A stretch of DNA of 64,000 bases from Parolsenella massiliensis (GTDB lineage Bacteria > Actinomycetota > Coriobacteriia > Coriobacteriales > Atopobiaceae), in contig NZ_LT671675.1 in the NCBI RefSeq assembly GCF_900143685.1, positions 967,111 through 1,031,110 of the forward strand, written 5' to 3'. Of this stretch, positions 4,420 through 28,189 are shown one piece after another. The notes under the pieces are model-generated. The model did no database searches. It worked only from the letters and a program-made list of their open reading frames with translations, and was not told the DNA's origin. Position 1 is the stretch's first letter. Each line of letters starts with the position of its first letter. The translations under genes were made by a program, and so were the position numbers.

Positions 4420-6078
4420 CTAGACCTCCATGACGACCGGGATGATCATCGGGCGCGTGCGGGTCTTGGACCACAGGTAGTTGGAAAGCGAGTTGCGAAC
4501 GGCCTTGCGAAGCACGTCCACCGACGGGCTCCCCTGGTTGTTCTTGTCGATGGCGGCGCGGCAGGTGTCCTCGATACCGGCAAGCAGCTCGTCGTCGCTG
4601 GCGAACGACACGCCACGGCTCGAGACGTCGACGTCGGCCACCTTGTGCGAGCGGGCCTTGAGAGTCACGACGCACGTCACGATGCCATCCTGCGACAGCT
4701 TCTGGCGGTCGCGAAGCACCACCGGGTCGGTGTCGCCGATGCGCAGGCCGTCGACGTAGATGATGCCGGAGTCGAAGCTGGGGCCGCGAGATACCTTGCC
4801 GTCCCTCATCTGCAGCGAGTCACCGTTGTCGAGGATGAAGATTTGGTCGTCGGACATGCCCATGCTCTTGGCGAGCTTGGCGTGCGCGCGAAGGTGCACG
4901 GCCTCGCCGTGGACGGGCATGAAGTTCTTGGGGTGGACCATGGCCAGCATGAGCTTGAGCTCCTCCTGGCGGCCGTGGCCGGAGACGTGGACCGTGGCGT
5001 TCGTCTTGTCATAGACGTCGCAACCGATCTTCGAGAGCGAGTTAATGATGCCCTGGACGCTCTTCTCGTTGCCGGGGACGGGCGTCGCCGAGATGATGAC
5101 CGTATCGCCCTCGCAGATCGAGAGGCTCTTGTGCTCGCCGTTCGCCATGCGAGCGAGCGCGGAGAGGGGCTCGCCCTGGCTGCCGGTGCACAGCACGACG
5201 ATCTTGTCCTCGGGGATGTCATTGATCTCGAAGGCGTCGATGATGTCTTCGTCGGCAATCTTGAGGTAGCCCAGCTCGCGAGCGATCTTGGTGTTCGTGA
5301 CCATGGAGCGGCCCGTCACGACGACCTTGCGGCCCACGGCCGTGGCGGCGTCGCAGACCTGCTGGAGACGATGAATGTGGCTCGAGAAGCTCGCCACGAA
5401 CACGCGGCCGGGGGCGTTCTTGATGATGTGGCGAAGGGAGGCGCCCACGGTGGCCTCGCTCGGCGTGAAGCCGGGGAAGTTGGCGTTCGTGGAGTCGGAG
5501 AGCATAAGGTCGACGCCCTGCTTGCCGAAGCGGTTGATGGCGTTGTAGTTGGGGCGCACGCCGTCAATGGGCGTCTGGTCGAGCTTGAAGTCGCCCGTGT
5601 GCAGCACCGTGCCGGCCGGCGTCTTGAGGAAGATGCCAAGGGCGCCGGGGATGGAGTGCGTCATCGCGAAGAACTGCAGCGAGAAGCAGCCCAAGTTCAC
5701 GCTAGAACCATCCGTGACCTCGCGGAACTTCGGGGACTTGATGTTGTGCTCGGCGAGCTTGCCCTCGATCATGCCAAGGGTGAGCTTGCTCGAGAAAATG
5801 GGCACCTTGTGCGTGAGGTCCATGAGCAGGTACGGCAGCGCGCCGGTGTGGTCCTCGTGGCCGTGCGTGATGACGATGCCACGAAGCTTCTCCTCGTTCT
5901 CGAGCACGTAGGTGTAGTCGGGAAGGACGAGGTCGATGCCGGGCTGGTCGTCATCGGGGAACATCAGGCCGGCGTCGACGAGCACCATGTCGTCGCCGCA
6001 CTCGAAGGCCGTCATGTTCTTGCCGATGCCGTCCAGACCACCCAGCGGGATGATCCTCAGGGTCGGGGTCTTTGCCAT
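4420..6078 (-). CDS. rnj: Ribonuclease J
   Basis: 552 residues, a metallo-beta-lactamase/beta-CASP RNase. Zinc-binding motif HGHEDHTGALPY, then HTGDFKLDQTP, DSTNANFPGFTPSE and the beta-CASP motifs TGSQGEPLSALARM and SGHGRQEELKLML with HGE near the C-terminus. RNase J has endonuclease and 5'-3' exonuclease activity and matures rRNA and degrades mRNA in bacteria without RNase E, or alongside it. PNPase, the main 3'-5' exonuclease, is encoded just upstream on the same strand, putting both arms of RNA decay together. The SD and ATG at 6076-6078 are convincing. Confidence 0.95.
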   Translation of the reverse strand: MAKTPTLRIIPLGGLDGIGKNMTAFECGDDMVLVDAGLMFPDDDQPGIDLVLPDYTYVLENEEKLRGIVITHGHEDHTGALPYLLMDLTHKVPIFSSKLTLGMIEGKLAEHNIKSPKFREVTDGSSVNLGCFSLQFFAMTHSIPGALGIFLKTPAGTVLHTGDFKLDQTPIDGVRPNYNAINRFGKQGVDLMLSDSTNANFPGFTPSEATVGASLRHIIKNAPGRVFVASFSSHIHRLQQVCDAATAVGRKVVVTGRSMVTNTKIARELGYLKIADEDIIDAFEINDIPEDKIVVLCTGSQGEPLSALARMANGEHKSLSICEGDTVIISATPVPGNEKSVQGIINSLSKIGCDVYDKTNATVHVSGHGRQEELKLMLAMVHPKNFMPVHGEAVHLRAHAKLAKSMGMSDDQIFILDNGDSLQMRDGKVSRGPSFDSGIIYVDGLRIGDTDPVVLRDRQKLSQDGIVTCVVTLKARSHKVADVDVSSRGVSFASDDELLAGIEDTCRAAIDKNNQGSPSVDVLRKAVRNSLSNYLWSKTRTRPMIIPVVMEV

Positions 6079-6173
6079 GTGTTTGGTAAACCTCCTTGGT
6101 TGTAGGTGTGTACGTCAAGCGGGCAAGCCCGCGTCTACTTGTCTGTCGTGGTGCGCCCACAAGGCGCCCCAGG

Positions 6174-6249
6174 GCGTCAGACGGGCAGGAGCCCATCTGA
6201 CGCGACTCTCCATTATGCAGCAAGGGGAGGACTCCGTGGAGCCCTCCCC
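6174..6249 (-). promoter_or_regulatory. Two strong hairpins between pnp and rnj
   Basis: A near-perfect long hairpin lies at 6174-6203 (arms GCGTCAGA/TCTGACGC with inner GGGC/GCCC). A second at 6224-6249 has GGGGAGG/CCTCCCC arms extended by GACTCC/GGAGCC with one wobble. Neither has a long T run, so they look more like RNA processing or stability elements, or weak terminators, than classical terminators. Their place in the pnp 3' end and rnj leader is suggestive of control by these RNases themselves, which is inference. Confidence 0.5.
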
Positions 6250-6295
6250 CATGCGTTCTACCTAATTACCATGCCTTGCGGCGCGTTGCCGAGGC

Positions 6296-8530
6296 CTAGC
6301 CCTCGTGGTGGCGGCGCGGGGCGCGGCCAGAGCCGGCGTTACCGTTGTCACCGGGGTGACGGCGAGGCTTGCGCTCGCCACGGCGCTCGCCGCGCGGCTC
6401 GTGGTGGTCGGAGTGACCTCCCTTGGAGCCACCGGGAACCTCGGGCTTGTCGAGACGGTCGAGACTGATCTTGCCCTTCTCGTCGACCTCGAGGACCTTG
6501 ACCTTGACCTCGTCGCCAATGGCCAGGACATCCTCGACCTTGTCGACGCGGCCCTGGGCGACGCGGCTGATGTGCAGCAAGCCGTCCTTGCCGGGCAGGA
6601 GCTCGACGAAGGCACCGAAGGGCTGGATGCCCACGACGCGGCCGGTGTACTCCTCGCCCACCTCGGGCACCTTGACGATGGCCTTGATGCGAGCGGCGGC
6701 GTCCTGGGCGGCGCCGTCCGTGCCGGCGATGAAGACGTTGCCGTCCTCCTGGATGTCAATCGTGGCGCCCGTGTCGTCCTGGATGCCGCGGATGACCTTG
6801 CCGCCGCTGCCGATGACGTCGCGGATCTTGTCCGTCGGGATCTGGATCGTGATGATCTGCGGGGCCGTGTCCTTGGGCGTCTCACGCGGGGTGGGGATGG
6901 CGTCGAGCATCGTCTTCAGGATGAAGGCGCGGCCCTCGTGGGCCTGGTGCAGCGCCTGGGAGAGGATCTCGGGCGTGAGGCCGGTGGCCTTGTTGTCCAT
7001 CTGCATGGCCGTGATGCCGCGCTCGGTGCCCGTCACCTTGAAGTCCATGTCGCCGAGGAAGTCCTCGAGACCCTGGATGTCGGACAGGACGACCGTCTTG
7101 CCCTCCTCCTGGATGAGGCCCATGGCGATGCCGGAGACGGGGCGCTTGAGCGGCACGCCAGCGTCCATGAGGGCGAGCGTGGAGCCGCACGTGGAGGCCA
7201 TCGAGGAGGAGCCGTTGGACTCCATGACCTCGGAGACCACGCGGATCGTGTAGGGGAACTCCTCCTCGGAGGGGATCACCGGGAGAAGCGCGCGCTCGGC
7301 GAGGTTGCCGTGGCCGATCTCGCGGCGCTTCGGCGAGCCCATGCGGCCCGTCTCGCCGGTGCAGTACGGCGGGAAGTTATAGTGGTGGATGTAGCGCTTG
7401 CCGTCGACCGGCTCGATGGTGTCGAGGCGCTGCCACTCGTTGAGCATGCCGAGGGTGCAGACGGACAGGACCTGCGTCTGGCCACGCTGGAACAGGCCGG
7501 AGCCGTGCACGAGCGGCAGGTAGTCGGGCTTGACCATGAGCGGGCGGATCTCGTCGGCGGCACGGCCGTCAACGCGCTCGCCGGTCTCGACGACCATGCA
7601 GCGCATGGCGTGCTTCTCGAGGCTCTTGAGCTCGACGGGGATCTCGCGGCTGTAGAGAGCCTGCTCCTCCTCGGTGAACTCGGCCTTGATGGCGGCCTTG
7701 AGCAGCTCGACCTTGCCGATGCGCGAGAGCTTGTCGGCGTCCTTGAGCGCGGCGCTCATCTCGTCGTAGTGGGCGAAGACCTTGTCGTGGACGTAGGGCA
7801 CCGGCTCGTCGTAGACGTACTCGCGCTTGACGATCGGGCCGTTGACCTGCTCGTACTCGGCGAAGAACTTCTTCTGCTCCTCGCAGAAGGCGGCGATGGC
7901 CTCCTGGCCGAACGCCATGGCGGCGAGCATGTCCTCCTCGGAGATCTCGTCAGCGGAGGCCTCGAGCATGGAGATGAAGGAGTCGGAGCCAGCGAGCTCG
8001 AGGTCGAGGTCGGAGGCGTCGCGCTCCTCGTAGGTCGGGTTCACGATGAACTCGCCGGTCTCGGGGTTGCGGCCGATGCGGACGCAGGCCAGCGGGCCCT
8101 CGAAGGGCACGCCGCCCACGGTGAACGCGGAGGAGGCGGCCATGACGCACATCGTGTCGACGGGGTTCACCTGGTCGGCGACGAGCGAGGTAGCGACGAC
8201 CTGGACCTCGTTGCGGAAGCCGGCCGGGAAGCTCGGGCGCAGCGGACGGTCGATCATGCGGGCCGTGAGGGTGGCCTTCTCGGAGGGACGAGCCTCACGC
8301 TTGAGATAGCCGCCGGGGATGCGGCCCACGGCGTACATCTTCTCGATGAAGTCGACCGTCAGCGGGAAGAAGTCGTAGTCCTTGCGCTCCTTCGAGACCA
8401 CGGCCGTAACGAGCACCGTGGAGTCGCCCTGCTTGACGAGGACGGCACCGGTGGCCTGCTTGGCCAGCTCGCCGGTCTCGAGCACGTAGTGCTTGCCGTA
8501 GAGGTCGAACTCATGTGTAACCTTTGCCAT
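6296..8530 (-). CDS. pnp: Polyribonucleotide nucleotidyltransferase (PNPase)
   Basis: 744 residues. Two RNase PH-like domains (about 10-240 and 320-560) flank the helical linker. A KH domain with GxxG (IRDVIGSGGKVIRGI, about 575-635) and an S1 domain (GRVVGIQPFGAFVELLPG, about 645-705) follow, then a Gly/Arg/His-rich basic tail. PNPase degrades RNA 3'-5' by phosphorolysis and can add tails. It lies downstream of rpsO, the order conserved in many bacteria, with an rpsO terminator between them. The tail after S1 is low-complexity and basic, as in other actinobacterial PNPases. Confidence 0.97.
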   Translation of the reverse strand: MAKVTHEFDLYGKHYVLETGELAKQATGAVLVKQGDSTVLVTAVVSKERKDYDFFPLTVDFIEKMYAVGRIPGGYLKREARPSEKATLTARMIDRPLRPSFPAGFRNEVQVVATSLVADQVNPVDTMCVMAASSAFTVGGVPFEGPLACVRIGRNPETGEFIVNPTYEERDASDLDLELAGSDSFISMLEASADEISEEDMLAAMAFGQEAIAAFCEEQKKFFAEYEQVNGPIVKREYVYDEPVPYVHDKVFAHYDEMSAALKDADKLSRIGKVELLKAAIKAEFTEEEQALYSREIPVELKSLEKHAMRCMVVETGERVDGRAADEIRPLMVKPDYLPLVHGSGLFQRGQTQVLSVCTLGMLNEWQRLDTIEPVDGKRYIHHYNFPPYCTGETGRMGSPKRREIGHGNLAERALLPVIPSEEEFPYTIRVVSEVMESNGSSSMASTCGSTLALMDAGVPLKRPVSGIAMGLIQEEGKTVVLSDIQGLEDFLGDMDFKVTGTERGITAMQMDNKATGLTPEILSQALHQAHEGRAFILKTMLDAIPTPRETPKDTAPQIITIQIPTDKIRDVIGSGGKVIRGIQDDTGATIDIQEDGNVFIAGTDGAAQDAAARIKAIVKVPEVGEEYTGRVVGIQPFGAFVELLPGKDGLLHISRVAQGRVDKVEDVLAIGDEVKVKVLEVDEKGKISLDRLDKPEVPGGSKGGHSDHHEPRGERRGERKPRRHPGDNGNAGSGRAPRRHHEG

Positions 8531-14564: not shown

Positions 14565-15824
14565 TCAGCTTCGGGCGTCAAGCATGCCGCTGGCATCAAG
14601 CCCATGGGGCACGAGCCAGGCGAGCTGCCCCGCAAGGCCGGGGTCAGTGCGGACGCGCACGCCACTACCCGTCGTGCCAAGGCAGCCCCGCTCGCATAGG
14701 ACGAGTTGTCGCGTGCCCACGAGCCCGCGTGCGTGCTCGCTCGCAAGGGCGTGGGAGAGCTGACGCATGATTCGAGAGCGCTCGGCGCTCGTATGCGCGT
14801 CCACCTGCCCGTCCATCTGGGCCGCCGGAGTGCCGGGGCGCCTCGAATAGCGAAAGACGTGCATGCCGCTAAGCCCGAGCTCGCGACAGGTGGCGAGGCT
14901 CCGCTCGAACTCCTCGTCCGTCTCGCCGGGAAAGCCGACGATGACGTCGGTGGAAAGCGCAAGCCCAGGGACCGCGTCAATCGCCTGCGAGGCCATCTGG
15001 GCATACTCGCGGACCGAGTATGGGCGGCCCATGCGCCGCAACGTGGCATCGCAGCCGCTCTGCAGCGGCACATGCAGAAACGGGGCCACGCGACCGCCCG
15101 AGCCCGCCATGACCTCGAGCAACTCCGGCGTGACGCCAGCCGGCTCCACGGAGGAAAGCCTCGCCCTGCCGATACCTGTCTGGGCAAGGATCAGCGAAAG
15201 CAGCGACGCCAGCGTCACGGACCCGCAACGATATCGGCCCAGATCGATGCCCGTGAGAACGACCTCGCGTGCGCCATCGGCCTCGAGACGCCTGACGCGC
15301 TCAATGACGTCGACGGCGTCAAGCGAGCGCGCCGGGCCCCGCGCCTTCCAGACGATGCAGTACGTGCAGCGCCGGTCGCAGCCGTCCTGGATCTTGAGCC
15401 CGGGGCGCATCCGCCCCGTGGGGGTCACGGGCGCGGCACCACAGACAGCGCGAGGCGAACTGAGAGGCGAGGGCTCGGCGGCCCTGTCCGCAAGCTCGAG
15501 AACGCGCGACGCCACGCGATCCTTGTCGGGCTCCACCATGACGCACGGATCGGTCTCGAGTAGCTCGTCGGCAAACAGCGTCGCGGCACACCCGGTCGCC
15601 ACGACGAGGCGAACGCCGGGACGCGAGGCCGCATGCCTCACCGCGTGACGCGCCTTGGCCTGGGCCTCGGCCGTGACGGCGCACGTGTTCACGACCACGG
15701 CCTCGGCCCCGTCCTCGTCAACGAGCTCGCAGCCATGGGACGCGAGCTCGCGCGCCATCGCGTCGAGCTCGGCCCTGTTGACTCGACAGCCCAGGTTGAC
15801 GAGGGCAACGCGAGCGTGGCCCAT
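14565..15824 (-). CDS. mtaB: tRNA t6A37 methylthiotransferase MtaB
   Basis: 419 residues from the ATG at 15822-15824. The N-terminal UPF0004 domain carries three Cys of the auxiliary cluster (LGCRVNRAE, NTCAVT, ATGCAAT). The radical SAM domain has CDRRCTYCIV and VLTGIDLGRY, and a TRAM-like C-terminus follows. MtaB turns t6A37 of ANN-decoding tRNAs into ms2t6A. The start overlaps the dnaJ stop (TAATG), showing coupling; the frame is open much further upstream but that would lie inside dnaJ. A chaperone-MTTase pair like this is common in Gram-positives. Confidence 0.92.
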   Translation of the reverse strand: MGHARVALVNLGCRVNRAELDAMARELASHGCELVDEDGAEAVVVNTCAVTAEAQAKARHAVRHAASRPGVRLVVATGCAATLFADELLETDPCVMVEPDKDRVASRVLELADRAAEPSPLSSPRAVCGAAPVTPTGRMRPGLKIQDGCDRRCTYCIVWKARGPARSLDAVDVIERVRRLEADGAREVVLTGIDLGRYRCGSVTLASLLSLILAQTGIGRARLSSVEPAGVTPELLEVMAGSGGRVAPFLHVPLQSGCDATLRRMGRPYSVREYAQMASQAIDAVPGLALSTDVIVGFPGETDEEFERSLATCRELGLSGMHVFRYSRRPGTPAAQMDGQVDAHTSAERSRIMRQLSHALASEHARGLVGTRQLVLCERGCLGTTGSGVRVRTDPGLAGQLAWLVPHGLDASGMLDARS

Positions 15825-16990
15825 TACTTGCCGTGCTTGGGCCTGGCAGAGGCCGCGCGCCCGTGCTTGTGCCCAAAGAGCCCCTCGATGCCACCTTCGG
15901 ACTTCTCGCCCACGCGCTCGCCACGCTCGGCGGCGATGTCGCGGATCTGCTCGAGCTGCTTGGCCGAGAGGTCGGTGGGGACCACGACGTTGAGGACCAC
16001 GACGAGCTTGCCGCGGGCATGGGAGCCCTGGCGGGGCATGCCATAGCCCTCGACTTCGATGTGCTGGGCGTTCTGACTGCCGGCAGGTACGCTCACGCTC
16101 ACGTGCTCGTCTGCCATGATGCCCTCGACGTCGAGCGTGCAGCCGCACATGGCCTCAATCGCAGTGACGTCCTCCATGCAGTACAGGTCGTCGCCCTCGC
16201 GCTGGAAGCGCTCGCCCTCGACGACCTCGACGCGAACGATGAGGTCACCGGACCTGTCGCCACGGATGCCCGCCTCGCCAAAGCCCTCGACCTTGAGCGA
16301 TTGGCCGGAGTGGACGCCAGCGGGGATGTCCACCTTGACGGTCTCGTGGTTGGGCGTGCGTCCCTGGCCGCCGCAAGTCTCGCAGGGGTGGTCGATGGAG
16401 TGGCCGGTGCCGTGGCAGACCGGGCACTCGCTCTGCGTCTGCATCTGGCCGAGGATGGTCTGCTGGACCGTCACCACGCGGCCCGTGCCATGGCAGCGCG
16501 AGCAGGTCGTGACGTGGCCTCCCTCGGCGCAGCCGCTCCCGTTGCAGTCGTCGCAGGGTGCAAGGCGGTCGTAGGCAACGGTCTTCGTGCAGCCCGCCGC
16601 GGCCTCGGCAAGCGTGACGCGCAGCGTAATGCCCATGTCGCGACCGGCCGTGCGAGCGGCGCGACCGCCTGCGGCCCCTCCGCCAAAGAACGAGGAGAAG
16701 ATGTCGTCCATGCCAAAGCCGCCGAAGATGTCGGAGACGTCGACACCGCCACCGCCAAAGCCGCTGGGGCCATCGGGATCGCCATAGCGGTCATAGTTGG
16801 CGCGCTTGCGCTCGTCGGAGAGCACGGAGTAGGCCTCGTTGACCTCCTTGAACTTCTCCTCGGCATCCGGAGCCTTGTTGACGTCCGGGTGCAGCGTGCG
16901 TGCCTTCTTGAGAAAGGCGCGCTTGATGGTCCTTGCGTCGGCGTCGCGAGAGACGCCCAGCACCTCGTAATAGTCTGCCTTAGCTTCCAC
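15824..16990 (-). CDS. dnaJ: Chaperone protein DnaJ
   Basis: 388 residues. J domain with HPD (residues 4-68), a Gly/Phe-rich linker holding [17 protein letters not shown], four CxxCxGxG zinc repeats ([32 protein letters not shown]) and the two C-terminal substrate domains. It is the canonical type I DnaJ partner of DnaK. A second DnaJ-like gene is immediately upstream on the same strand, and mtaB downstream overlaps by one base. No CIRCE or HAIR element was recognised nearby, so heat-shock control is not shown. Confidence 0.96.
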
Positions 16991-17059
16991 GCTCGTAGTT
17001 CTCGCTTCCCTCTTGAAACCAACAAACGGATGGGGCGGCGACGCGCCGCCCGAGATTGC

Positions 17060-18175
17060 CTAGTAGAGACGGCCCCGGTAGCCCGCCGTGCCAAAGCCGG
17101 ACATGCAGGAGACCATGAGCGCCATGAACACCGCGATGGTGGCCGCGTTCATGAAGCCGTTCACGAAGTAGCGCCACGCGTTCTTCCACCAGACGGACGC
17201 ATGGTGGAGCACGCCACCGCCCTTGGCGACAAGCACGAGGCCGATGACGAGCGGGATCCCCACGATGACGGAGAGCTGCGCGAGCACGTTGAGAAGCACG
17301 CCCAGCACCAAGAACGGCATGGCGAAGCCGATCATCTGGAAGCCCTGCGCGGCCTGGGGCTGCAGGCGCTCGCTTGGCACGCCCACGCGGCACACGAAGT
17401 CTCCCGTGGAGGAGCCGTTCGTGCCGGCGTTGCCCATGCCGGGTACGCGCACGGTGTCACCGTCATGGCTCCCGGCGGGAATGTCCACGACGACTTCGCT
17501 CGCCGAAAGCACGCGACCCGTGCCTCCGCAGGCGTCGCACGGGTCGACCACGACACGGCCCGACCCCTCGCACTCGGGGCAGACCATGTTCATGACGCCC
17601 AGACCCAGAAGGCTCGCGAGGTCAACCGAGATGTGGCCGGTGCCACCGCATGTGGGGCAGGTCCTCGCGTGGTCCGCGTGAACCGAACCCGCGCCGTGGC
17701 AGACGTCGCAGGCGACGTAGCGCTGGTAGGTGACGCCACGGCGCACGCCCTCCTTGGCCTGCTTGTCGTCGATGTCAAGCTGGTAGACGACGTCCCCGCC
17801 CGCCTTGGGGTTGTAGGCGCGGCTGCGACGCGAGCCCGCCTGGGGACCGGCGCCCGCCGCACCGAACGGCCAGCCCCAAAAGCCACCCATGCCGGCGAAC
17901 GGGTCGCCCTGCGGCTGGCTCGGCGAGCCGTACGAGGCGCCCGCGAAGGGGTTGCCGGACTGCATCGCGTCATAGCGACGGCGCTTGTCGGGGTCTGAGA
18001 GCACGGCGTAGGCCTCGGAGATCTCCTTGAACTTCTCCTCGGCGCCCGGCTCCTTGTTGATGTCGGGGTGATACTTGCGCGCGAGCTTCTGGAACGCCTT
18101 GCGAATCGTCGCGTCGTCCGCGTCATGCTCGACGCCAAGGATGGCGTAGTAGTCCTTGTCGTTCATGGATGCCAT
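17060..18175 (-). CDS. DnaJ-like protein with zinc fingers and a membrane C-terminus
   Basis: 371 residues from [21 protein letters not shown] domain with HPD, a Gly/Pro-rich linker and four zinc repeats ([32 protein letters not shown]) match type I DnaJ. The substrate domain is cut to about 50 residues and replaced by hydrophobic spans ([37 protein letters not shown]; a last one near the C-terminus). It is therefore probably membrane-anchored, with the J domain in the cytosol. It starts the operon containing dnaJ and mtaB. The ATG at 18175 is chosen for GGGAG upstream; M4 is an alternative. Confidence 0.8.
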
Positions 18176-20128: not shown

Positions 20129-21799
20129 TTGGGTTTCAAGGGACAGACCAAAGAGACCGGGGGCCATACGGGAAGAGAGCTCAACTGGTTTCTCACGCTT
20201 GGAATAGCGCTCGTCACGCTCATCTGCGCGGCACTCGCCGCGACGTCTCTGGTCCTCACCGCCTCCCCATCGCTTGCTCCCCTGAGCGAGCATGTGACCA
20301 TATGGCACCTCTTTGCGCCAGGCAGGACCCTCATGACCTGCCTGGCGCTTCTTGCCGGCGTTGCCTATGCCGCGCTTGCGGTTCTCATCGCGCGTAGGTC
20401 CTCCTCGATACCCGAGCGCGGCTTTGTGGCGGCGCTCGGCGCGGCGGCGATGGCGTTCTGCGTTGTTTGGATTGCGATGAACGCCACCGAGCACAACGGC
20501 TTCTCTGACTCCGCGCAAATCCTCGCCTACGCAAGGCAGGTCGCCCGCGGGGACACAAGCTCGTTTCTCCCCCACAGCGATTCCTTTGCCGGGAAGCTCC
20601 CGGGAGACATGTACCTGTCGAACTACCCCTTCCAAAGCGGAATACTTCTGCTCATGGAGGGGTTCTGTCGCCTGTTTGGAACCTGGGACGTCCAGGCGTT
20701 CCAACTGGCTTGCGCCCTATGCTGCGTGGGAACGTCGCTCGTCCTTGTGGACACGGCAAGGGCTTGCGGCCGTCCGAAGGCCGAGAGGCTCCTCGTGGCC
20801 TTCCTCTCGCTGACGCTGTTCGCCCCGCTTGTGTTCGTGGTGTTTCCCTATGGCAACACGATTGGCCTGTTCTTTGCCCTGCTCGCCATGGACCTGTGGC
20901 TGAGGTCACGCGAGCAAACGGGGGCCCGGCGCCACTTGTACGTCCTGACGGGGTTTCTCGCGTTTGCGTTTGGCCTAGCCGTAAAGTCGACCTACGTCGT
21001 CGTCGCCATAGGAATCTTGCTCGTGCTGCTCATAGACTGCCTCAGGAAGCGGGACGCCTGGGCTACCGCCGCGTTTGTCGTGCTCCTCGTCGTGGCGTCA
21101 CAGGCGTCAGGCATCATTCCGCAGAGAATCATGGAGGCGCGCCTGGGCTACGAGCTTCCGGCCAACCAGCCCAAGACGGCCTGGATCGCCATGGGTCTTT
21201 CGGATGACAGCGTGCTCGGCGCCGACATGCCAGGCTGGTGGAGCACCTCTGCCCTGGACAGCCAGGTTGCAAGCGAAGGTGACGTCGAGGCCATGGAGCG
21301 CAACGCCGAGGACTCGATCACCACGTCGCTTGCCACGTTTGGAGGCGACCCCGGCTATGCGGCCTGGTTCTTTGGCAAGAAGCTCGCAACCGAGTGGCTC
21401 GACCCAACGTTCCAGTCCCTCTACATCGCGGGATGTGGAACCATGCGCCCCGAGGCCCAGGCGCGCACGAACGCCAGCGACGGCAGGTTCGACCCGGCAG
21501 ACGCGAGCCTGCCCCAGGGAATCCTAGGGCGCGCCCTCGAGTGCGTCATGGACGGACAGCAGAGCGTCGTCTACTTCGGCGCCACGGCAGGTGGCCTCGC
21601 ACTTCTCGGAGAGGTAAGAAGAAGGAGGGCGAACACGCTCGAGCTCGCCCTCCCCTGCGCCTTCTTCATGGGGTTTGTCGTCTACACGCTCTGGGAGGCC
21701 AAGGGCATGTACGCCCTGCCCTTCTTCCTGTGCCTTCTGCCCCTTGCGGCAAGGGGCATTGCGCTCATGGCGCAAAGGCATGCAGCGGATAAGGCCTAG
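20129..21799 (+). CDS. GT-C type membrane glycosyltransferase-like protein
   Basis: 556 residues starting at TTG (20129) with AGGGGGAGG 6 nt upstream. About eleven membrane spans; a large external loop after the first two spans carries NATEHNGFSDSAQILAYARQ, where a GT-C-type acidic residue would lie. The layout resembles the PMT_2/ArnT group (GT39/GT83) that uses polyprenyl-phosphate sugars outside the membrane. It shares its stop region with the convergent LtaS-like gene, so it probably belongs to the envelope module here. No substrate can be assigned, and the family call is by topology only. Confidence 0.6.
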   Translation: MGFKGQTKETGGHTGRELNWFLTLGIALVTLICAALAATSLVLTASPSLAPLSEHVTIWHLFAPGRTLMTCLALLAGVAYAALAVLIARRSSSIPERGFVAALGAAAMAFCVVWIAMNATEHNGFSDSAQILAYARQVARGDTSSFLPHSDSFAGKLPGDMYLSNYPFQSGILLLMEGFCRLFGTWDVQAFQLACALCCVGTSLVLVDTARACGRPKAERLLVAFLSLTLFAPLVFVVFPYGNTIGLFFALLAMDLWLRSREQTGARRHLYVLTGFLAFAFGLAVKSTYVVVAIGILLVLLIDCLRKRDAWATAAFVVLLVVASQASGIIPQRIMEARLGYELPANQPKTAWIAMGLSDDSVLGADMPGWWSTSALDSQVASEGDVEAMERNAEDSITTSLATFGGDPGYAAWFFGKKLATEWLDPTFQSLYIAGCGTMRPEAQARTNASDGRFDPADASLPQGILGRALECVMDGQQSVVYFGATAGGLALLGEVRRRRANTLELALPCAFFMGFVVYTLWEAKGMYALPFFLCLLPLAARGIALMAQRHAADKA

Positions 21800-23790
21800 T
21801 GGTCTCCCTGACCCCAGCTCACTCCCGTGTAGCTCCAATTCGAGAAGTCGAGAGCATCGCCGTCGACGACATACTGGTCCATCGTCGTCTCGTGCACGCC
21901 GTCGTAGCGCTCCATGACAAAGTAGCGGAGACGCTGCGCCGAGTCGGAGACGTCGAAGTACGAGGTACCATCGCCAAATGACGCGGCGTCCGCCTCGTCG
22001 CCCATCGCCTTGAGCACCGTCGGCTGGAAGTCGGCGTGGCTGACGGGCGCCTCGGACACCTGGTATTCGCCCCTGGCGCCGGCGGGCTTCACGAGACAGA
22101 CCGGCGAGATGGGGTGGTTGAGGTCGTCGAGGTACTGCTCGACGATCCTGAACACGCCGCGCGTCTGCTGCTCCATCGTGGAGCCACCCTCGGGAACGTC
22201 CATGTTCTCGTCGTAGACGAACGGCACGTGGGAGCCGTTGAGGTGGATGACCTTGAGCGCGCCCGCCTTGTCCTGCTCGTCGCTCACGGAAAGGCCGCGG
22301 CTCTTGAGCTCGCCGTAGTAGGCGCCGTCATCAATGACGTAGGGAGTGTCGTAGTCGGAAGTCTCGCCAGACCCAATTCCAAGAACAGCCTGGTTCATGT
22401 CGTCCGTGTAGTACAAGAAGGCGGGCTTGACCGCCCAGGGGGCATTGCGATAGAGGGAGACCTTCGAGAGGATCCCAATGGTGGCCCACACGTCCACGCC
22501 CTTGTCGGCCGCCGGATGGATGTTGTCCGTCATGTCGCCGTAGAGCGACTTGCCCGTATAGAGGCAGTCGGCATAGAGGGAGACCGAGTAGTTGGCGTCA
22601 TTGGCGACGTCTGAGATGAAGCTGCCCTTCTCCCAGCGTCCGTCGACGTAGGAGGCATAGTCGTCTCCGGCGTTGAGCATCTGGCCCGTCATGAGGAAGG
22701 GAACGCCGTAGGCGGTGGGGATCATCGAGCCCACGGTTTTGCGGAAGTACGTGAACCCCGTGAAGCTGTCGAGCGTGTCGGGATAGTCGGCGAGCACCGT
22801 GTCGAACTCCTGCGTGTCAACGGTGTCGACGATAAACACGATGACGTTGCTCTTGTCGGAAACCTCGAACAGTCCCTGCTTGGAGACCATGTACTCAGCC
22901 GGCTGCGTGATGGCGCGCTTGACGTAACGCGCCACGCCCACTCCCTGGACGAGCATGAGGACGACGGCCAGGGAGCAGAGCCCCAGGCGACCCAGCGACG
23001 GCACCTTGACGACAAAGACGATGGCGGTAGCGACAAGAGCGGCCCAGACAACGAGGCTCACCGCAGTGGAGCCAGCGAAGCTTCCCCCAGTCCACCGCCT
23101 TGCCATCCGCCGTGGGAAGGCCGCCATTCATGAACAGCGCCTGAGCGAGGCTCGCGACGCCAAGCGCGAACACGACGGCCACCGCCACGTCAAAGGCGCG
23201 GCCCCTGAGCGCAGAAAGCAGCAGTGCCACGGGGCGGTTCCCGCGAGAAAGGCAAACGCGAGCATGACGATCCATGCGTCATGCAGGTTGAACAGCAGGC
23301 TGTCGCCGTTGGCGCCAACTATCTCATAGGGCGCCGCCACGAAGTTCGTGAACATGAGCAGGGCCATGGCCACGAGCGCAATGCCAAAGCGCTTGGACCA
23401 CGTGAGCGGCGCGCCGTCATAGGCACCGCCCTTGGGGGCCATAAGCGTCGTGGGCTTGGACGTGGGGAGGTCGGGGCTCGCGTCAACGACGCGAGACACC
23501 TGCGTCTCGACCGTCTTGCCGGCGTTCTCGTCCACCTTGAGGACGCGGAGCACGACGCGGCTCAGGCGCCTCCAGGCCACACCGATGACGGCCGAGAGCG
23601 AGAGCGCCACGGCAACGCCGGCGAGCGCCTGGATGGTGTAGGTCATGACGCTCGGGTCCACGTAGGCGAGCGCCGGGCGCGAGAGTCCGGCCCACAGGCA
23701 GGCGGCCATGGCGAGCAGCGCGACGGAATCGAGCACCGCAAGCGCCGTCGCGGCCGCTGCCTTCCGGACACAGGGGGAGGTGTTGCCCAC
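21796..23790 (-). pseudogene. LtaS/EptA-like membrane phosphotransferase, interrupted by two compensating indels
   Basis: Reads as one 664-residue protein if a base is added at the G run 23231-23234 and one removed from the C run 23084-23088. Start: GTG 23788-23790 with AGGGGAG upstream, one base after the YidC-TagF stop. The N-terminal half is membrane (five spans). The external half (from about residue 290) is an alkaline-phosphatase/sulfatase fold: NVIVFIVDTVDTQEF, a nucleophile-region motif SMIPTAYGVPFLMTG and HLNGSHVPF. These match enzymes that move phosphoglycerol or phosphoethanolamine from lipid to glycans, such as LtaS and EptA. As sequenced, about 47 codons (23089-23230) are out of frame. 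Homopolymer sequencing error or a real pseudogene are both possible. Confidence 0.75.
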
Positions 23791-23791
23791 G

Positions 23792-25783
23792 CTACTCCCC
23801 TCCCTTGCCAAGCCTCGGGAGCATGACGTCGTCGGCGAGCAGCTGCCTTCGGTCCTCGCGGGCCGCGAGCTCGGCGGCCTCGTCGCCCTCGCGGACGGCC
23901 TGGGCCTCGAGCATGAGGTCGAAAAGATAGCGACCGTCGCGCTCGGCGCCATGGCCGGGGTGGTAGATCATCTCGTCGCGCACGGCCTCGAGGCGGTCGC
24001 GCCACGAGGCGCCGTCGTCGACCATCTCCTGCACGACGTCGGCGAGCCTGCCCTCCAGCTCCTCGGGCGCCAGGCTCACGCCCACGCGGTTCCTGAGCGA
24101 AATGTCGGTGGGCTCGATGCCGAGGTCACGCCACTCGGGATTCGTCTCCTTCATCGGCGTGTCGACGAACACGCAGGGCTTGAAGGCCACGAGGGCGAGC
24201 TCGCAGAACACGCTCGACCAGTCGGTGACGAGCACGTCGGCGTCCAGGATGGAGTCGGAGCTGGAGAAGTCCTGCTCGAAGTAGAGGTCCTCAGCCGGAA
24301 CGTCGGCGAAGCGCGCCTGCAGGGCCTCCCAGCGGGGGCGGTAGCGCTTGGTGTACTCGGGGTGCGGGCGCACGACGACCCTCCAGCCGCGGCCCAGCAG
24401 CGGGCGGATCGCCTCGTCGGCGCACAGGTCCAGGATGTTGTCCTCCTGCCACGACGGGGCGATGAGCACGGTGGGGCGTGCGTTGGTGGCGTGGCCGCGG
24501 GCCAGGTAGTCGGCGCGCTCGGTGTCGATGAGGTCGTAGCCGCACGCGGCGAGCTCGCGCGGGGCCAGCCCCGCCTGCGCCTCGCGGGCGCGGGCCTCCG
24601 CCACCTGGTGCGGACCCACGCACATGAGCGCGTCGTAGTGGTCGAAGGCGGCGGCGTGGCTCACGAGGTGCAGCGACGTGGGGTGATGGAACGCGTAGAC
24701 GTAGCGCGTGTTCCTGCGCACGTAGGAGCGCTTGACGTAGAAGTTGTCCAGGTCATCGAGCGTCATGACCACGACGTCGGCGTCCATCTTCATCATGAGG
24801 GTGATGAGGCGTTTGTCGCCCACGTAGTAGGGAAGCACGCGCGGGTGGGACTCGGCGTAGGCGAAGACCTGGTCGTCGGGGTCGCCGGTGACGTAATGCA
24901 CGCACGCGTCGGAGTTGGCCAGCAGCCACTCGACGGCGCCGCGGAAGTACTTCCAGAAGCCGCTGCGCTCCGAGTAGAACACGACGTGCTTGCCCACGAC
25001 GGAAAAGAAGCGCTTGTAGTCGGCCCTCTCCCTCCTGGCGAGCGGGTCGGGCCTCCACCAGGGGCCCTTGCGCACCGACAGCGCGTTGAGCTCGGCGAGC
25101 TCGGCCTTGGAGGCCTCCAGCTCGGCGTAATCGACGTACTTGGCCGGGCGGATGCACAGGTTGCACAGCGCCTGTACCGCGATCGACAGCAGGTTGGAGC
25201 ACACCCAGTAGAACGCCATACCGGCCGACACGTAGATGCCCAGGAAGAAGGACAGCGCGATGGACAGGCCGTTGGTGGAGTTCTTCTCGGCGCGGGACTG
25301 CTCGCGCTGCAGCGGGTTGATGTGGTTGGAGGCCACGCCCATCACCACGGCCGACAGCGTGGCGAGCACGGGCATGATCCACGAGGCGCCGCCGTCCTCC
25401 ATGGGGACGAGCCCCAGGAACTCGGTGCCCGCCGCGCCCGAGTCGGCGATGGCGTGGATGACGTCGACCAGGCCGAACAGGATGACGACCTGCACGGCCA
25501 GCGGGATGAGCGAGAGCAGCGGGTGGTAGTGGTACTCCTTGTTGAGCTGGCTCTGGCGCTCGCCGATCTGCTCCTGGTCGCCGAAGTACTTGGCCTTGAC
25601 GCGGTTGAGCGCCGGCATCATGCGCACCATGACGATGGAGTTCCACTGGCACCACAGAGACAGCGGCATGAGGACGAGCTTGGCTATGAGGGTGAACAGC
25701 AGGATGGTGGCCCACCAGTTGTGGGTGAGCTCGTAGCACGGCTGCATGATGGCCATGAAGATGTCAGTGATCCAGGAGAACAC
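23792..25783 (-). CDS. Fusion of YidC-like membrane insertase and CDP-glycerol glycerophosphotransferase
   Basis: 663 residues in one uninterrupted frame, GTG start. Residues 1-225 are YidC/Oxa1-like: span 1 ATILLFTLIAKLVLMPLSLW with Lys35 where YidC usually has the groove Arg, a charged cytoplasmic loop, then four further spans. Residues 270-600 are a TagB/TagF-type Glyphos_transf domain: YAFHHPTSLHLVSHAAAFDH, IAPSWQEDNILDL, RPHPEYTKRY and DADVLVTDWSSVFCELAL. TagF polymerises glycerol-phosphate from CDP-glycerol at the cytoplasmic face. The fusion would tether it to the membrane. The LtaS-like gene follows after one base, so the two act together by context. The coupling of insertase and transferase is unexplained. 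Confidence 0.85.
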   Translation of the reverse strand: MFSWITDIFMAIMQPCYELTHNWWATILLFTLIAKLVLMPLSLWCQWNSIVMVRMMPALNRVKAKYFGDQEQIGERQSQLNKEYHYHPLLSLIPLAVQVVILFGLVDVIHAIADSGAAGTEFLGLVPMEDGGASWIMPVLATLSAVVMGVASNHINPLQREQSRAEKNSTNGLSIALSFFLGIYVSAGMAFYWVCSNLLSIAVQALCNLCIRPAKYVDYAELEASKAELAELNALSVRKGPWWRPDPLARRERADYKRFFSVVGKHVVFYSERSGFWKYFRGAVEWLLANSDACVHYVTGDPDDQVFAYAESHPRVLPYYVGDKRLITLMMKMDADVVVMTLDDLDNFYVKRSYVRRNTRYVYAFHHPTSLHLVSHAAAFDHYDALMCVGPHQVAEARAREAQAGLAPRELAACGYDLIDTERADYLARGHATNARPTVLIAPSWQEDNILDLCADEAIRPLLGRGWRVVVRPHPEYTKRYRPRWEALQARFADVPAEDLYFEQDFSSSDSILDADVLVTDWSSVFCELALVAFKPCVFVDTPMKETNPEWRDLGIEPTDISLRNRVGVSLAPEELEGRLADVVQEMVDDGASWRDRLEAVRDEMIYHPGHGAERDGRYLFDLMLEAQAVREGDEAAELAAREDRRQLLADDVMLPRLGKGGE

Positions 25784-25892: not shown

Positions 25893-27101
25893 CTATTCAT
25901 CCGATGAAAGGTCCCAAAGGGCGCCATAGAGCTCGTTCCCCAGCAGCCAGCCGTCGTGCGTGGGCACGAGCGCGCTACCTTCAGACGCTGCAAGCAGGCC
26001 CCTCGAGACGAGTTCGGACAGGCAGGCGTCGACGCGCGAGCCGTCCAGCACCTCTCGTGCGCGGGCCACAAGCGACGGGGCAAGCCCGTCCGTCATGCGC
26101 GCCGCAAGCATGAGGTCCTCGGCCACGGCCTCGCGAGCGCTCAGCTGCTCGACGTCGAAGCTGAGCTCGGACAGGCTCCTCGCGCGAATGATGCCGTCTG
26201 TGTCAGTGAGCGTCGAGAGCCTGAACCTCACGGCCTCCTCATAAGGCGAGGGAAGGCTGGCGACACGCTGCCTCAGCGTCTCGTAGGACGCGCGTCCCAG
26301 CATGCTTGCCGCGGACGTGCCCAGGCCAAGGTACTCGACGCCCGTCCAGTAGGCGATGTTGTGGGCGCAGCGCCTCTGTGGCTTGGCATAGCTTGCGACC
26401 TCATAGCGAGTAAAGCCGGCCTGTCCGAGCACGTCAAGCGCGGCTTCCATGTCGGAGGCCTCGGTGACGTCCGAGGGCCAGGGAAGGCGCCCATCCTCGC
26501 ACAGGCGCTCCATGGGGGTGCCCGGCTCGATCATGAGCGGATAGCAGCTCACATGCCCCACACCAAGCCCCACGGCCGTCTCGAGCGAGCACCGCCAGCT
26601 CGCAGGCGTTTGGTATGGGATGCCGCACATGAGGTCGACCGAGACGTCCAGTCCACTTGCCACGGCCGCCGCCACGCGCCTACGGGCAAGCCCCGCGTCG
26701 TGGATGCGCCCAAGACCAGCGAGCTCGCGGTCATCGAAGCTCTGCACGCCGATGGAGACGCGCGTGGCCCCATGCTCGCGCGCGCGAATCAGAATGTCGT
26801 CCGAAAGTGACTCGGGGTTCGCCTCGAAGGTGAGCTCGGCGATGCCGGGCCCGCATGCGTCGAGAAGCAGGGCCAGGGAGGCGGACCCCAGCATCGTCGG
26901 GGTTCCGCCGCCGACGTATGCCGTGGCAAGGTCGCCGAGCACGCCATGCTCGCGAGCCTCTGAGGCCAGGTTGGAGAGGGAGCGAGCGTACTCCCCCATG
27001 CGCTCGTCTCCGTGGCGCGTGGCCGCCGTTGAGAAGTCACAATAGCGGCAGCGCCTGGCGCAGAAGGGAACATGCAGGTAGAGGGCGCGAATGCCAGGCA
27101 T
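25893..27101 (-). CDS. hemW: Radical SAM protein HemW (heme chaperone-like)
   Basis: 402 residues from the ATG at 27099-27101, overlapping the dus stop as TGATG. The [4Fe-4S] motif CARRCRYCDF lies at residues 16-25, followed by YVGGGTPTML, and a C-terminal HemW domain ends the protein. HemW was long called oxygen-independent coproporphyrinogen oxidase-like but acts in heme delivery. It lacks the extra N-terminal residues of true HemN. A possible GTG start 3 bases upstream exists. It is the last gene of lepA-dus-hemW. Confidence 0.9.
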   Translation of the reverse strand: MPGIRALYLHVPFCARRCRYCDFSTAATRHGDERMGEYARSLSNLASEAREHGVLGDLATAYVGGGTPTMLGSASLALLLDACGPGIAELTFEANPESLSDDILIRAREHGATRVSIGVQSFDDRELAGLGRIHDAGLARRRVAAAVASGLDVSVDLMCGIPYQTPASWRCSLETAVGLGVGHVSCYPLMIEPGTPMERLCEDGRLPWPSDVTEASDMEAALDVLGQAGFTRYEVASYAKPQRRCAHNIAYWTGVEYLGLGTSAASMLGRASYETLRQRVASLPSPYEEAVRFRLSTLTDTDGIIRARSLSELSFDVEQLSAREAVAEDLMLAARMTDGLAPSLVARAREVLDGSRVDACLSELVSRGLLAASEGSALVPTHDGWLLGNELYGALWDLSSDE

Positions 27102-28189
27102 CACAGCGACGCCTCGAGCTCGTCTGCCAGGGCGAGGTAGTCGTCAAGCGCGGCGCAGTGCATGGCTCGCTCACGCCACGCGGCAGCCTCGGGAACGCCG
27201 CGCAGGTACCAGCCGGCAAGGCTGCGGGCACGTGCGATGTGGGCGCCCGTGGCACCCAGCAGACGTACGTGCAGGCGAAACGCGTTGAGCCGCATGGAAG
27301 GCGTCACCTCGGCCGGCTCCAGCCCGGCCATGACGCGCTTCGCGTTCGAGAAGACCCAGGGGTCGCCATAGCTGCCGCGCGCCACGAAGCAGGCGGCAGC
27401 GTCCGTCTCGCGCAGAAGCGAGGCCGCACGACGAGCGTCCAGGGCATCTCCCGATGCGATGACCGGCACGTCCACGGCCTCAACGATCTGGGCGATGGCC
27501 GCCGCGCTCGACTGGCCCCGGTACATCTGCGACGCAACGCGCCCATGGACGGCGATGGCCTGGGCACCGGCAGCCTCCATGGCTCGTGCGAACTCAACGC
27601 CCACGAGGTGGTCGGGCACCCGACCAAGCCTGATCTTCACGGTGACGGGCACGCTAAGCTCCTCGCGCAGCGCGCCCACGATGCGGGTCGCGAGCTCGGG
27701 ATCGTCGAGAAGGGCAGAGCCCGCGCCGCCTCGCGTGACCTTGGGCACGGGACAAGCCATGTTCACGTCAACGAGGGCAAGCCTGTCGCCAACGTGCTCT
27801 CCGAGCCGGCAGGCCGCCTCGCGGAAGTGCTCCGGGTCGGCACCGAACAGCTGGACGGCAAGGTCGGGCTCGGCCACGTTGGGCTCGACGAGCGACCAAG
27901 TCTTCTCGCTGCCATAGTGGATGCCGGTCACGCTCACCATCTCAGTGTAGGCAAGGGCCGCGCCGCCCGCGCGAGCCATCATGCGATAGGCCGCATCGGT
28001 GACGCTTGCCATGGGCGCCATGAGGAAGGGCGAGGTGCAGAGGCGCTCGCGAAGCGTCCCCGCAGGGCAGAAGGGCTCGGGCGGCCAGACAAGGCCTGCC
28101 AAGGCCGCCCCCGCCGCAATCACGCGGGAGGCCTCGTCGCTGCGGGCAAGGCGCGCCTGGTTTGCCACGATCTGGGAGGTGCGGGCCAC
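27101..28189 (-). CDS. dus: tRNA-dihydrouridine synthase
   Basis: 362 residues, GTG start directly after the lepA stop. The FMN TIM barrel starts at about residue 50 (FLMAPMASVTDAAYR). The catalytic Cys lies in DVNMACPVPKVTRGGAGSAL, with IAVHGRVASQMYRG and ARGSYGDPWVF near the phosphate-binding loop. Dus reduces uridines in the tRNA D-loop with NADPH. The first 45 residues are an extension absent from most DusB proteins, so a later start is possible. The lepA-dus-hemW order suggests one transcript. Confidence 0.92.
   Translation of the reverse strand: MARTSQIVANQARLARSDEASRVIAAGAALAGLVWPPEPFCPAGTLRERLCTSPFLMAPMASVTDAAYRMMARAGGAALAYTEMVSVTGIHYGSEKTWSLVEPNVAEPDLAVQLFGADPEHFREAACRLGEHVGDRLALVDVNMACPVPKVTRGGAGSALLDDPELATRIVGALREELSVPVTVKIRLGRVPDHLVGVEFARAMEAAGAQAIAVHGRVASQMYRGQSSAAAIAQIVEAVDVPVIASGDALDARRAASLLRETDAAACFVARGSYGDPWVFSNAKRVMAGLEPAEVTPSMRLNAFRLHVRLLGATGAHIARARSLAGWYLRGVPEAAAWRERAMHCAALDDYLALADELEASL

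Follow-up and report, generated by a model that had tools for sequence, protein, structure and literature searches.

What is a YidC-type insertase fold doing on the same polypeptide as a TagF-type transferase, and with which partner does that polypeptide work? The question is raised by a locus of the Coriobacteriia species Parolsenella massiliensis lying in a window—the whole stretch of DNA that was analysed, 64,000 nucleotides of contig NZ_LT671675.1 (genome G000)—in which a gene for a YidC-TagF fusion protein (hereafter FUS) is followed by a stretch coding for an LtaS-like phosphotransferase (SULF) and then by a gene for a GT-C-like membrane protein. The first-pass annotation took the three for one membrane module sufficient to build or decorate a teichoic-acid-like polymer. 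Together, the window's three genes are not one working module. Judging from sequence, the conserved unit is FUS plus SULF, two genes and sometimes one. The interest of the locus is as a lead to a conserved YidC-TagF/LtaS-like tailoring unit, the three-gene module itself being ordinary and partly a pseudogene, and fusion of an insertase fold to a transferase would be an unusual use of YidC.

FUS and SULF occur together almost without exception. In a survey of 140 genomes of the family, with FUS counted at full length and SULF at an E value of 1e-15, FUS is present in 34 genomes and SULF in 33, every one of them a FUS carrier, and SULF is found in none of the 106 non-carriers; the one carrier without it, G012, is an assembly that is 88% complete. 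The first-pass pairing of a cytoplasmic TagF-type domain with an outside-facing LtaS-like enzyme is thus supported by their evolution, and the pairing is also seen in gene order. SULF lies directly downstream of FUS in 30 of the 33 family loci fetched (all carriers except the window's genome), nine of these 30 having tandem SULF copies. The exceptions are G001—the sister species, and the sole other genome of the genus compared—where SULF has been lost at the site, G014, where it is on another contig, and G012, where the contig ends 1.2 kb on. Furthermore, in eight genomes (G026, G027, G077, G078, G079, G081, L087, and L131), FUS and SULF form one open frame of ~1,330-1,390 amino acids, that of G081 being cut by the contig end, which supports the idea that the two enzymes are physically linked. 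Two of the eight belong to genus g15, four to g31, and L087 and L131 are named loci; in a tree of 77 FUS proteins they fall in four places, L131 on a long branch and with unsure placement. Single-frame cases were called by length to the first stop (in L042, L045, L052, L053, and L061 the matches ran past the FUS stop, and the long frames of four of these five are excluded), and counts were taken from tblastn positions, greedy maps of open reading frames (ORFs) in GC-rich loci being partly spoiled by antisense frames.

The association extends beyond the family. When named genomes were scanned, 442 stretches proved to encode a relative of the FUS query, and the best 80 loci were analysed, 59 assigned by title and tree to Coriobacteriia and 21 to Bacillota, Planctomycetota, and Lentisphaerota. 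Many of these are metagenome-assembled genomes (MAGs), near-identical loci are not independent, absence from a draft genome is weak evidence, and, because some genomes contribute both to family loci L041-L073 and to the named loci, the two sets were not summed. Among these best 80 of 442, 54 have full flanks, and SULF adjoins FUS in 38 of them (31 with SULF downstream or fused and eight with it upstream, one locus counting in both groups); it does so in nine of the 26 with short flanks; the link therefore outlasts changes in gene order. Outside Coriobacteriia it is adjacent in eight of 21 loci, upstream in seven (L128, L132, and L147-L151) and downstream in L143, and it lies a few genes away in L136, L138, L139, and L154. 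Two loci deserve separate mention. At L124:12161-16300, a three-domain fusion is followed by a 929-amino-acid ORF and a stand-alone TagF-like gene; the ORF is SULF-like in the ORF map, yet has no SULF match by tblastn position. G087 is the sole carrier of FUS and SULF among 31 genomes of genus g33, and three LicCA matches lie within ~5 kb of its FUS gene, two on the upstream side and one on the downstream side; horizontal gain of FUS and SULF by this genome is possible.

Both halves of FUS can be recognized. Pfam families 60KD_IMP (PF02096) and Glyphos_transf (PF04464) match with 90.3 and 28.6 bits, against cut-offs of 35 and 22.1, respectively. The AlphaFold model (pLDDT, the predicted local distance difference test, 87.9) consists of a YidC part, which aligns with YidC from B. 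halodurans (3wo7; Z 18.4, 2.8 Å over 199 residues), and a GT-B part, for which TagF (3l7k) is the top Foldseek match, with TarL also among the fold matches. PDB profile searches of alignments A1 and A2 returned YidC/Oxa1 chains plus chance matches at E >1. TagF chains were not among the results, and it is Pfam and fold that provide the TagF assignment. At 90% identity between G000 and G001 and with a ratio of nonsynonymous to synonymous substitution rates (dN/dS) of 0.15, FUS is by sequence comparison conserved and under purifying selection. Residues R472 P473 H474 P475 and D521 W522 S523, together with H366, which we take to have catalytic roles in the TagF-type domain, are invariant in 39 of 39 sequences (A2). 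Lys35 in the first membrane helix, conserved in at least 90% of A2 sequences, may occupy the position usually held by the Arg in the hydrophilic groove of YidC. As for SULF, about seven hydrophobic segments precede an alkaline-phosphatase-fold domain; its best sequence relative in the PDB is LtaS, which in fold scores is tied with sulfatases and YejM. T358, D321, H519, D572, and H573 are invariant in 44 of 44 aligned sequences (A3), and we assume that they act as in LtaS, Thr358 being the nucleophile.

Gene neighbourhoods of relatives offer clues to the donor. LicC and/or LicA are encoded in 12 of the 59 Coriobacteriia loci. Of the 34 family carriers, 29 have LicCA-like matches, vs 29 of 106 other family genomes, and in 10 of these 29 carriers, representing seven genera, they lie within 10 kb of FUS (0.77 expected if genomes were independent). 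In several genera, the neighbour of the LicC/LicA protein is an EamA (LicB-like) transporter. The arrangement licCA-licB-FUS-SULF-SULF is that of Atopobium minutum (L115) and A. fossor (L142), whose genomes have no LicD match. Among 13 named genomes tested, LicD was matched in neither of these two nor in L114, L124, and Berryella wangjianweii (L090); the first four of these five appear to repeat LicD-negative family carriers. In L065:2898-4724 and L042:13051-14874, LicC and LicA form one protein whose N terminus has winged-helix (MarR/TrmB-like) matches below cut-off, as if choline activation had been joined with a regulator.

Other loci carry phosphonate genes. Phosphoenolpyruvate (PEP) mutase and phosphonopyruvate decarboxylase (Ppd) are both encoded in 11 of the 80 loci (L128, L130, L131, L133, L135-L139, L152, and L154), 10 of them among the 21 outside Coriobacteriia and one among the 59 within. 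Eight of the 11 have an iron-type alcohol dehydrogenase (Fe-ADH), and L128, L130, and L152 a 2-aminoethylphosphonate (AEP) aminotransferase, in addition to a nucleotidyltransferase. L139 and L154 show the run FUS - cytidylyltransferase - PEP mutase - Fe-ADH - Ppd - SULF, and nothing else inside it is a candidate for the transfer step; in L154, cytidylyltransferase and PEP mutase are one gene. When 40 of the 80 named loci were taken into a genome-wide scan, PEP mutase was over cut-off in 16 of these FUS genomes (14 of 21 outside Coriobacteriia, those of L140, L143, L145, and L146 among them, and two of 19 within), and in the family it is found in seven of 140 genomes, four of which are carriers. 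Hosts of phosphonate-linked FUS and SULF are Bacillota (mostly MAGs), a Planctomycetia MAG, a Victivallales MAG, and a Gordonibacter. In the Victivallales MAG (L128), ORFs with like beginnings (148 amino acids; 804 and 654+ amino acids), at 4780-7946 and 15139-17860, flank the FUS-phosphonate cluster; the flanking stretches are perhaps a mobile or duplicated segment.

On the basis of what has been observed—the fusion, the folds, the conserved residues, co-occurrence, adjacency, and the gene contexts of relatives—our tentative reading, to which we give a probability of roughly 45%, is that FUS, inside the cell, transfers phosphocholine or a phosphonate as a CMP-activated head group and that SULF acts outside. 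Like every functional claim made here, it is drawn from sequence and gene neighbourhood, from which we infer the topology, both donor and acceptor, the part played by the YidC fold, and the order of steps. The GT-B domain of FUS would take a cytidylyl-activated small head group, which might be phosphocholine in many Coriobacteriia and aminoethyl- or hydroxyethylphosphonate in many Clostridia. The acceptor would be a lipid or lipid-linked molecule at the cytoplasmic face, the C-terminal end of YidC being expected inside. The YidC domain would anchor the enzyme in the membrane and might allow the product through, and SULF would use or finish that product, which may be a lipid, a lipid-linked glycan, or a polymer, on the outside.

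Several points weigh against this reading. First, the contexts are patchy: 46 of the 59 Coriobacteriia loci have neither LicC/LicA nor PEP mutase in the fetched stretch, some stretches being short, no lic genes lie beside FUS in the window (those of G000 are far off), PEP mutase is not beside FUS in the four family carriers that have it (G025, G026, G027, and G079), and SULF is non-adjacent in 16 of the 54 full-flank named loci. Second, 30 of 34 carriers, the window genome among them, have LicD (86 of 140 family genomes overall), which in those carriers is another candidate for phosphocholine transfer. LicD is lacking in four of the 29 LicCA-positive carriers and in six of the 29 LicCA-positive non-carriers (G080, G090, G100, G104, G110, and G136), and because these six are also without it, lack of LicD is by itself no pointer to FUS. 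Third, the known substrates of TagF-type enzymes are polyol phosphates, and use of CDP-choline by a TagF-type fold is, to our knowledge, unproven. Fourth, the lic genes may be there for a different decoration of the same polymer. Finally, G001 is the one carrier with TagD over cut-off, and sub-threshold TagD-like domains are present in frames of 448-471 amino acids in G026, G027, G028, and G081. The carriers without LicD are G003, G004, G007, and G079, each with LicCA-like matches. Replacement of LicD by FUS is hinted at by genus g2 alone, in which G002 has LicCA and three LicD matches but lacks both FUS and SULF, and G003 and G004 have LicCA, FUS, two SULF copies, and no LicD; it is not borne out by the counts of genomes lacking LicD.

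A bolder version of head-group transfer by FUS and SULF, which we regard as somewhat unlikely, is a LicD-independent relay across the membrane. The TagF-type domain would move phosphocholine, AEP, or hydroxyethylphosphonate from its CMP ester onto a lipid, the YidC fold would scramble the head-group lipid to the outer leaflet, and SULF would take the head group off that lipid and hand it to a surface glycan. According to a preprint, scrambling of lipids in vitro is seen with YidC from E. coli and with other insertases (PMC10491306). If the relay were true, three activities would reside on one chain in the lineages with a single-frame FUS-SULF, and the relay would be a candidate for the missing transfer step of bacterial phosphonate tailoring.

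The alternative that survives best, which we consider somewhat unlikely, follows classical teichoic acid logic: anchored in the membrane, FUS would polymerize glycerol or ribitol phosphate inside, and SULF would transfer glycerol phosphate outside in the manner of LtaS. The TagF and TarL fold matches of FUS, the sequence kinship of SULF with LtaS, and TagD in G001 are all consistent with it. The phosphoglycerol chemistry inside the cell that had been envisaged for the locus is not supported, however: TagD (TIGR01518) has no match in the window genome, and the 21 of 140 family genomes with TagD over cut-off comprise one of the 34 carriers and 20 of the 106 others. Moreover, two TagD queries run against the 80 named loci (E 1e-5) matched only in L128, L133, L135, L136, and L139, each time within the portion of the PEP mutase gene that encodes the cytidylyltransferase, and the neighbours of FUS in relatives supply CDP-choline or CMP-phosphonates instead. 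CDP-glycerol chemistry for FUS is therefore poorly supported, and CDP-glycerol as its default donor is weakened by the TagD scan.

Alternatively, the YidC domain might be a private insertase for SULF or another membrane enzyme of the pathway, linked to TagF for co-localization only. The YidC domain is better conserved between G000 and G001 than the TagF domain (95% vs 87% identity), its first membrane helix has the near-invariant Lys, SULF is the usual neighbour of FUS, and a separate YidC gene adjoins rpmH in the window genome, all of which would fit. This is nevertheless improbable in our view, given that the motifs of the TagF domain are kept in 39 of 39 sequences and that the gene contexts are metabolic.

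Returning to head-group transfer by FUS and SULF, how does it fare in the window itself (Table 1), where SULF is no longer intact? The GT-C-like ORF, the sulfatase/LtaS-like coding stretch, and the fusion ORF were all found where the first-pass annotation had placed them, as was the single base between the fusion stop and a GTG opening the LtaS-like frame. The phosphotransferase it described is broken, though. The reading frame from the GTG is lost near 23.24 kb, runs into a stop, and is back in the coding frame near 23.08 kb; ~27-30 codons are missing near 22115, where relatives have the invariant D572 H573 G574 (A3); the Sulfatase Pfam match is at 18.5 bits, below the cut-off of 25; and no NCBIfam model matched the pieces. 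Relatives carry longer, uninterrupted homologues. By its sequence, then, the window's SULF is decayed: it carries two frameshifts and a stop and has lost the catalytic Asp-His segment. A neat operon reading had hidden a pseudogene.

Table 1. Features of the locus, in window positions
Feature	Positions	Strand	Basis
FUS: YidC-TagF fusion, 663 aa, GTG start	23792..25783	-	Pfam 60KD_IMP and Glyphos_transf over cut-off
YidC/Oxa1 domain of FUS, ~aa 1-215	25139..25783	-	PF02096 at aa 23-208
TagF-type GT-B domain of FUS, ~aa 246-640, RPHP and TDWSS motifs	23864..25048	-	PF04464
SULF remnant: broken LtaS-like phosphotransferase gene	21796..23790	-	Two-frame pieces, in-frame stop, catalytic segment missing
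Premature stop of SULF remnant, in frame of its GTG start	23128..23130	-	
Site without catalytic Asp-His segment (approximate)	22100..22130	-	Alignment with intact paralogue
GT-C-like membrane protein gene, convergent with SULF	20129..21799	+	PMT and GT87 matches below cut-off; ten hydrophobic segments
Radical-SAM gene directly upstream of FUS, same strand as FUS	25893..27104	-	

Sequencing error is an unlikely cause, given the missing catalytic segment, the loss of the gene in G001—where ~25 bp separate the FUS and GT-C matches—and the state of 43 ORFs of G001 when compared with the window, of which 33 were intact, 10 were flagged, and no second clear frameshift was seen (one flagged ORF, with a second-frame match, has an over-long start; the nine without such a match were judged from the table only). 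Each species has one uninterrupted SULF copy elsewhere, 83% identical to the other (G000:C1:386315-388402 and G001:C1:1397111-1399177), and in the window genome this unlinked copy, which lies ~20 kb from choline genes, is the probable partner of FUS. Beside the intact paralogue, a LicC-like gene (G000:C1:388872-389591; L011:8834-9784) is split by an in-frame TAG and may be a second decaying gene of the pathway. The window genome has two further Lic loci (G000:C1:409194-413750 and 679312-681969), one with LicD; its SULF paralogue, LicCA, and LicD all lie within ~27 kb.

The GT-C-like gene is outside the conserved unit and accompanies FUS only in this genus. Its Pfam matches are weak (PMT, 17.8 against a cut-off of 22.7; GT87, 17.1 against 25), it is convergent with SULF, their stops overlapping, and is for that reason on a separate transcript from FUS and SULF; matches occur in 18 of 140 family genomes, among which only G000 and G001 are FUS carriers. 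Conservation of the neighbourhood thus holds for the FUS-SULF pair and fails for GT-C with that pair. That the three genes jointly build a teichoic-like polymer in this species is highly improbable: they do stand together in the window, and FUS and GT-C side by side in G001, but SULF is broken in the former and absent at the site in the latter, and GT-C, on the opposite strand, is in only two of 34 carriers. The radical-SAM neighbour, presumably HemW-like, is common only to G000 and G001 among the fetched loci.

Comparison with the closest known systems shows similarities and differences. FUS shares with the wall teichoic acid polymerases TagF and TarL (PF04464) the GT-B fold and the RPHP and DWSS motifs; it differs in that its transferase sits behind a YidC domain, TagD is rare in carriers, and its neighbours make CDP-choline or CMP-phosphonates. 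With the insertases YidC2 and SpoIIIJ (PF02096) it has fold and Pfam family in common, but it possesses a C-terminal transferase, is away from the rpmH locus, and has, we assume, a Lys in place of the groove Arg. SULF resembles LtaS, EptA, and YejM in its membrane helices followed by an alkaline-phosphatase-fold domain, with an invariant Thr and Asp-His, and is distinguished by its genetic link to FUS. As in the lic1 phosphocholine pathway (LicA, LicB, LicC, and LicD), a LicC/LicA fusion and a LicB-like EamA transporter lie beside FUS in several genera, whereas the candidate transferase that adjoins them, for example in L115 and L142, is FUS and not LicD. In Coriobacteriia, the FUS-SULF pair may place phosphocholine, a group recognized by hosts, on the surface. 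We found no paper on a YidC-TagF fusion or a phosphonate transferase in the open-licence literature. For Pnt phosphonyl tailoring, PMC6697681 names PntC, with LicD-like phosphotransferases or glycosyltransferases as neighbours, and describes as unknown the biosynthetic route by which activated phosphonates come to modify the surface; by term search, neither TagF nor YidC is mentioned in its main text. FUS loci share with the Pnt systems described there genes for PEP mutase, Ppd, AEP transaminase, and cytidylyltransferase, some having Fe-ADH instead of the transaminase, and FUS and SULF are concrete candidates for the steps that follow phosphonate activation.

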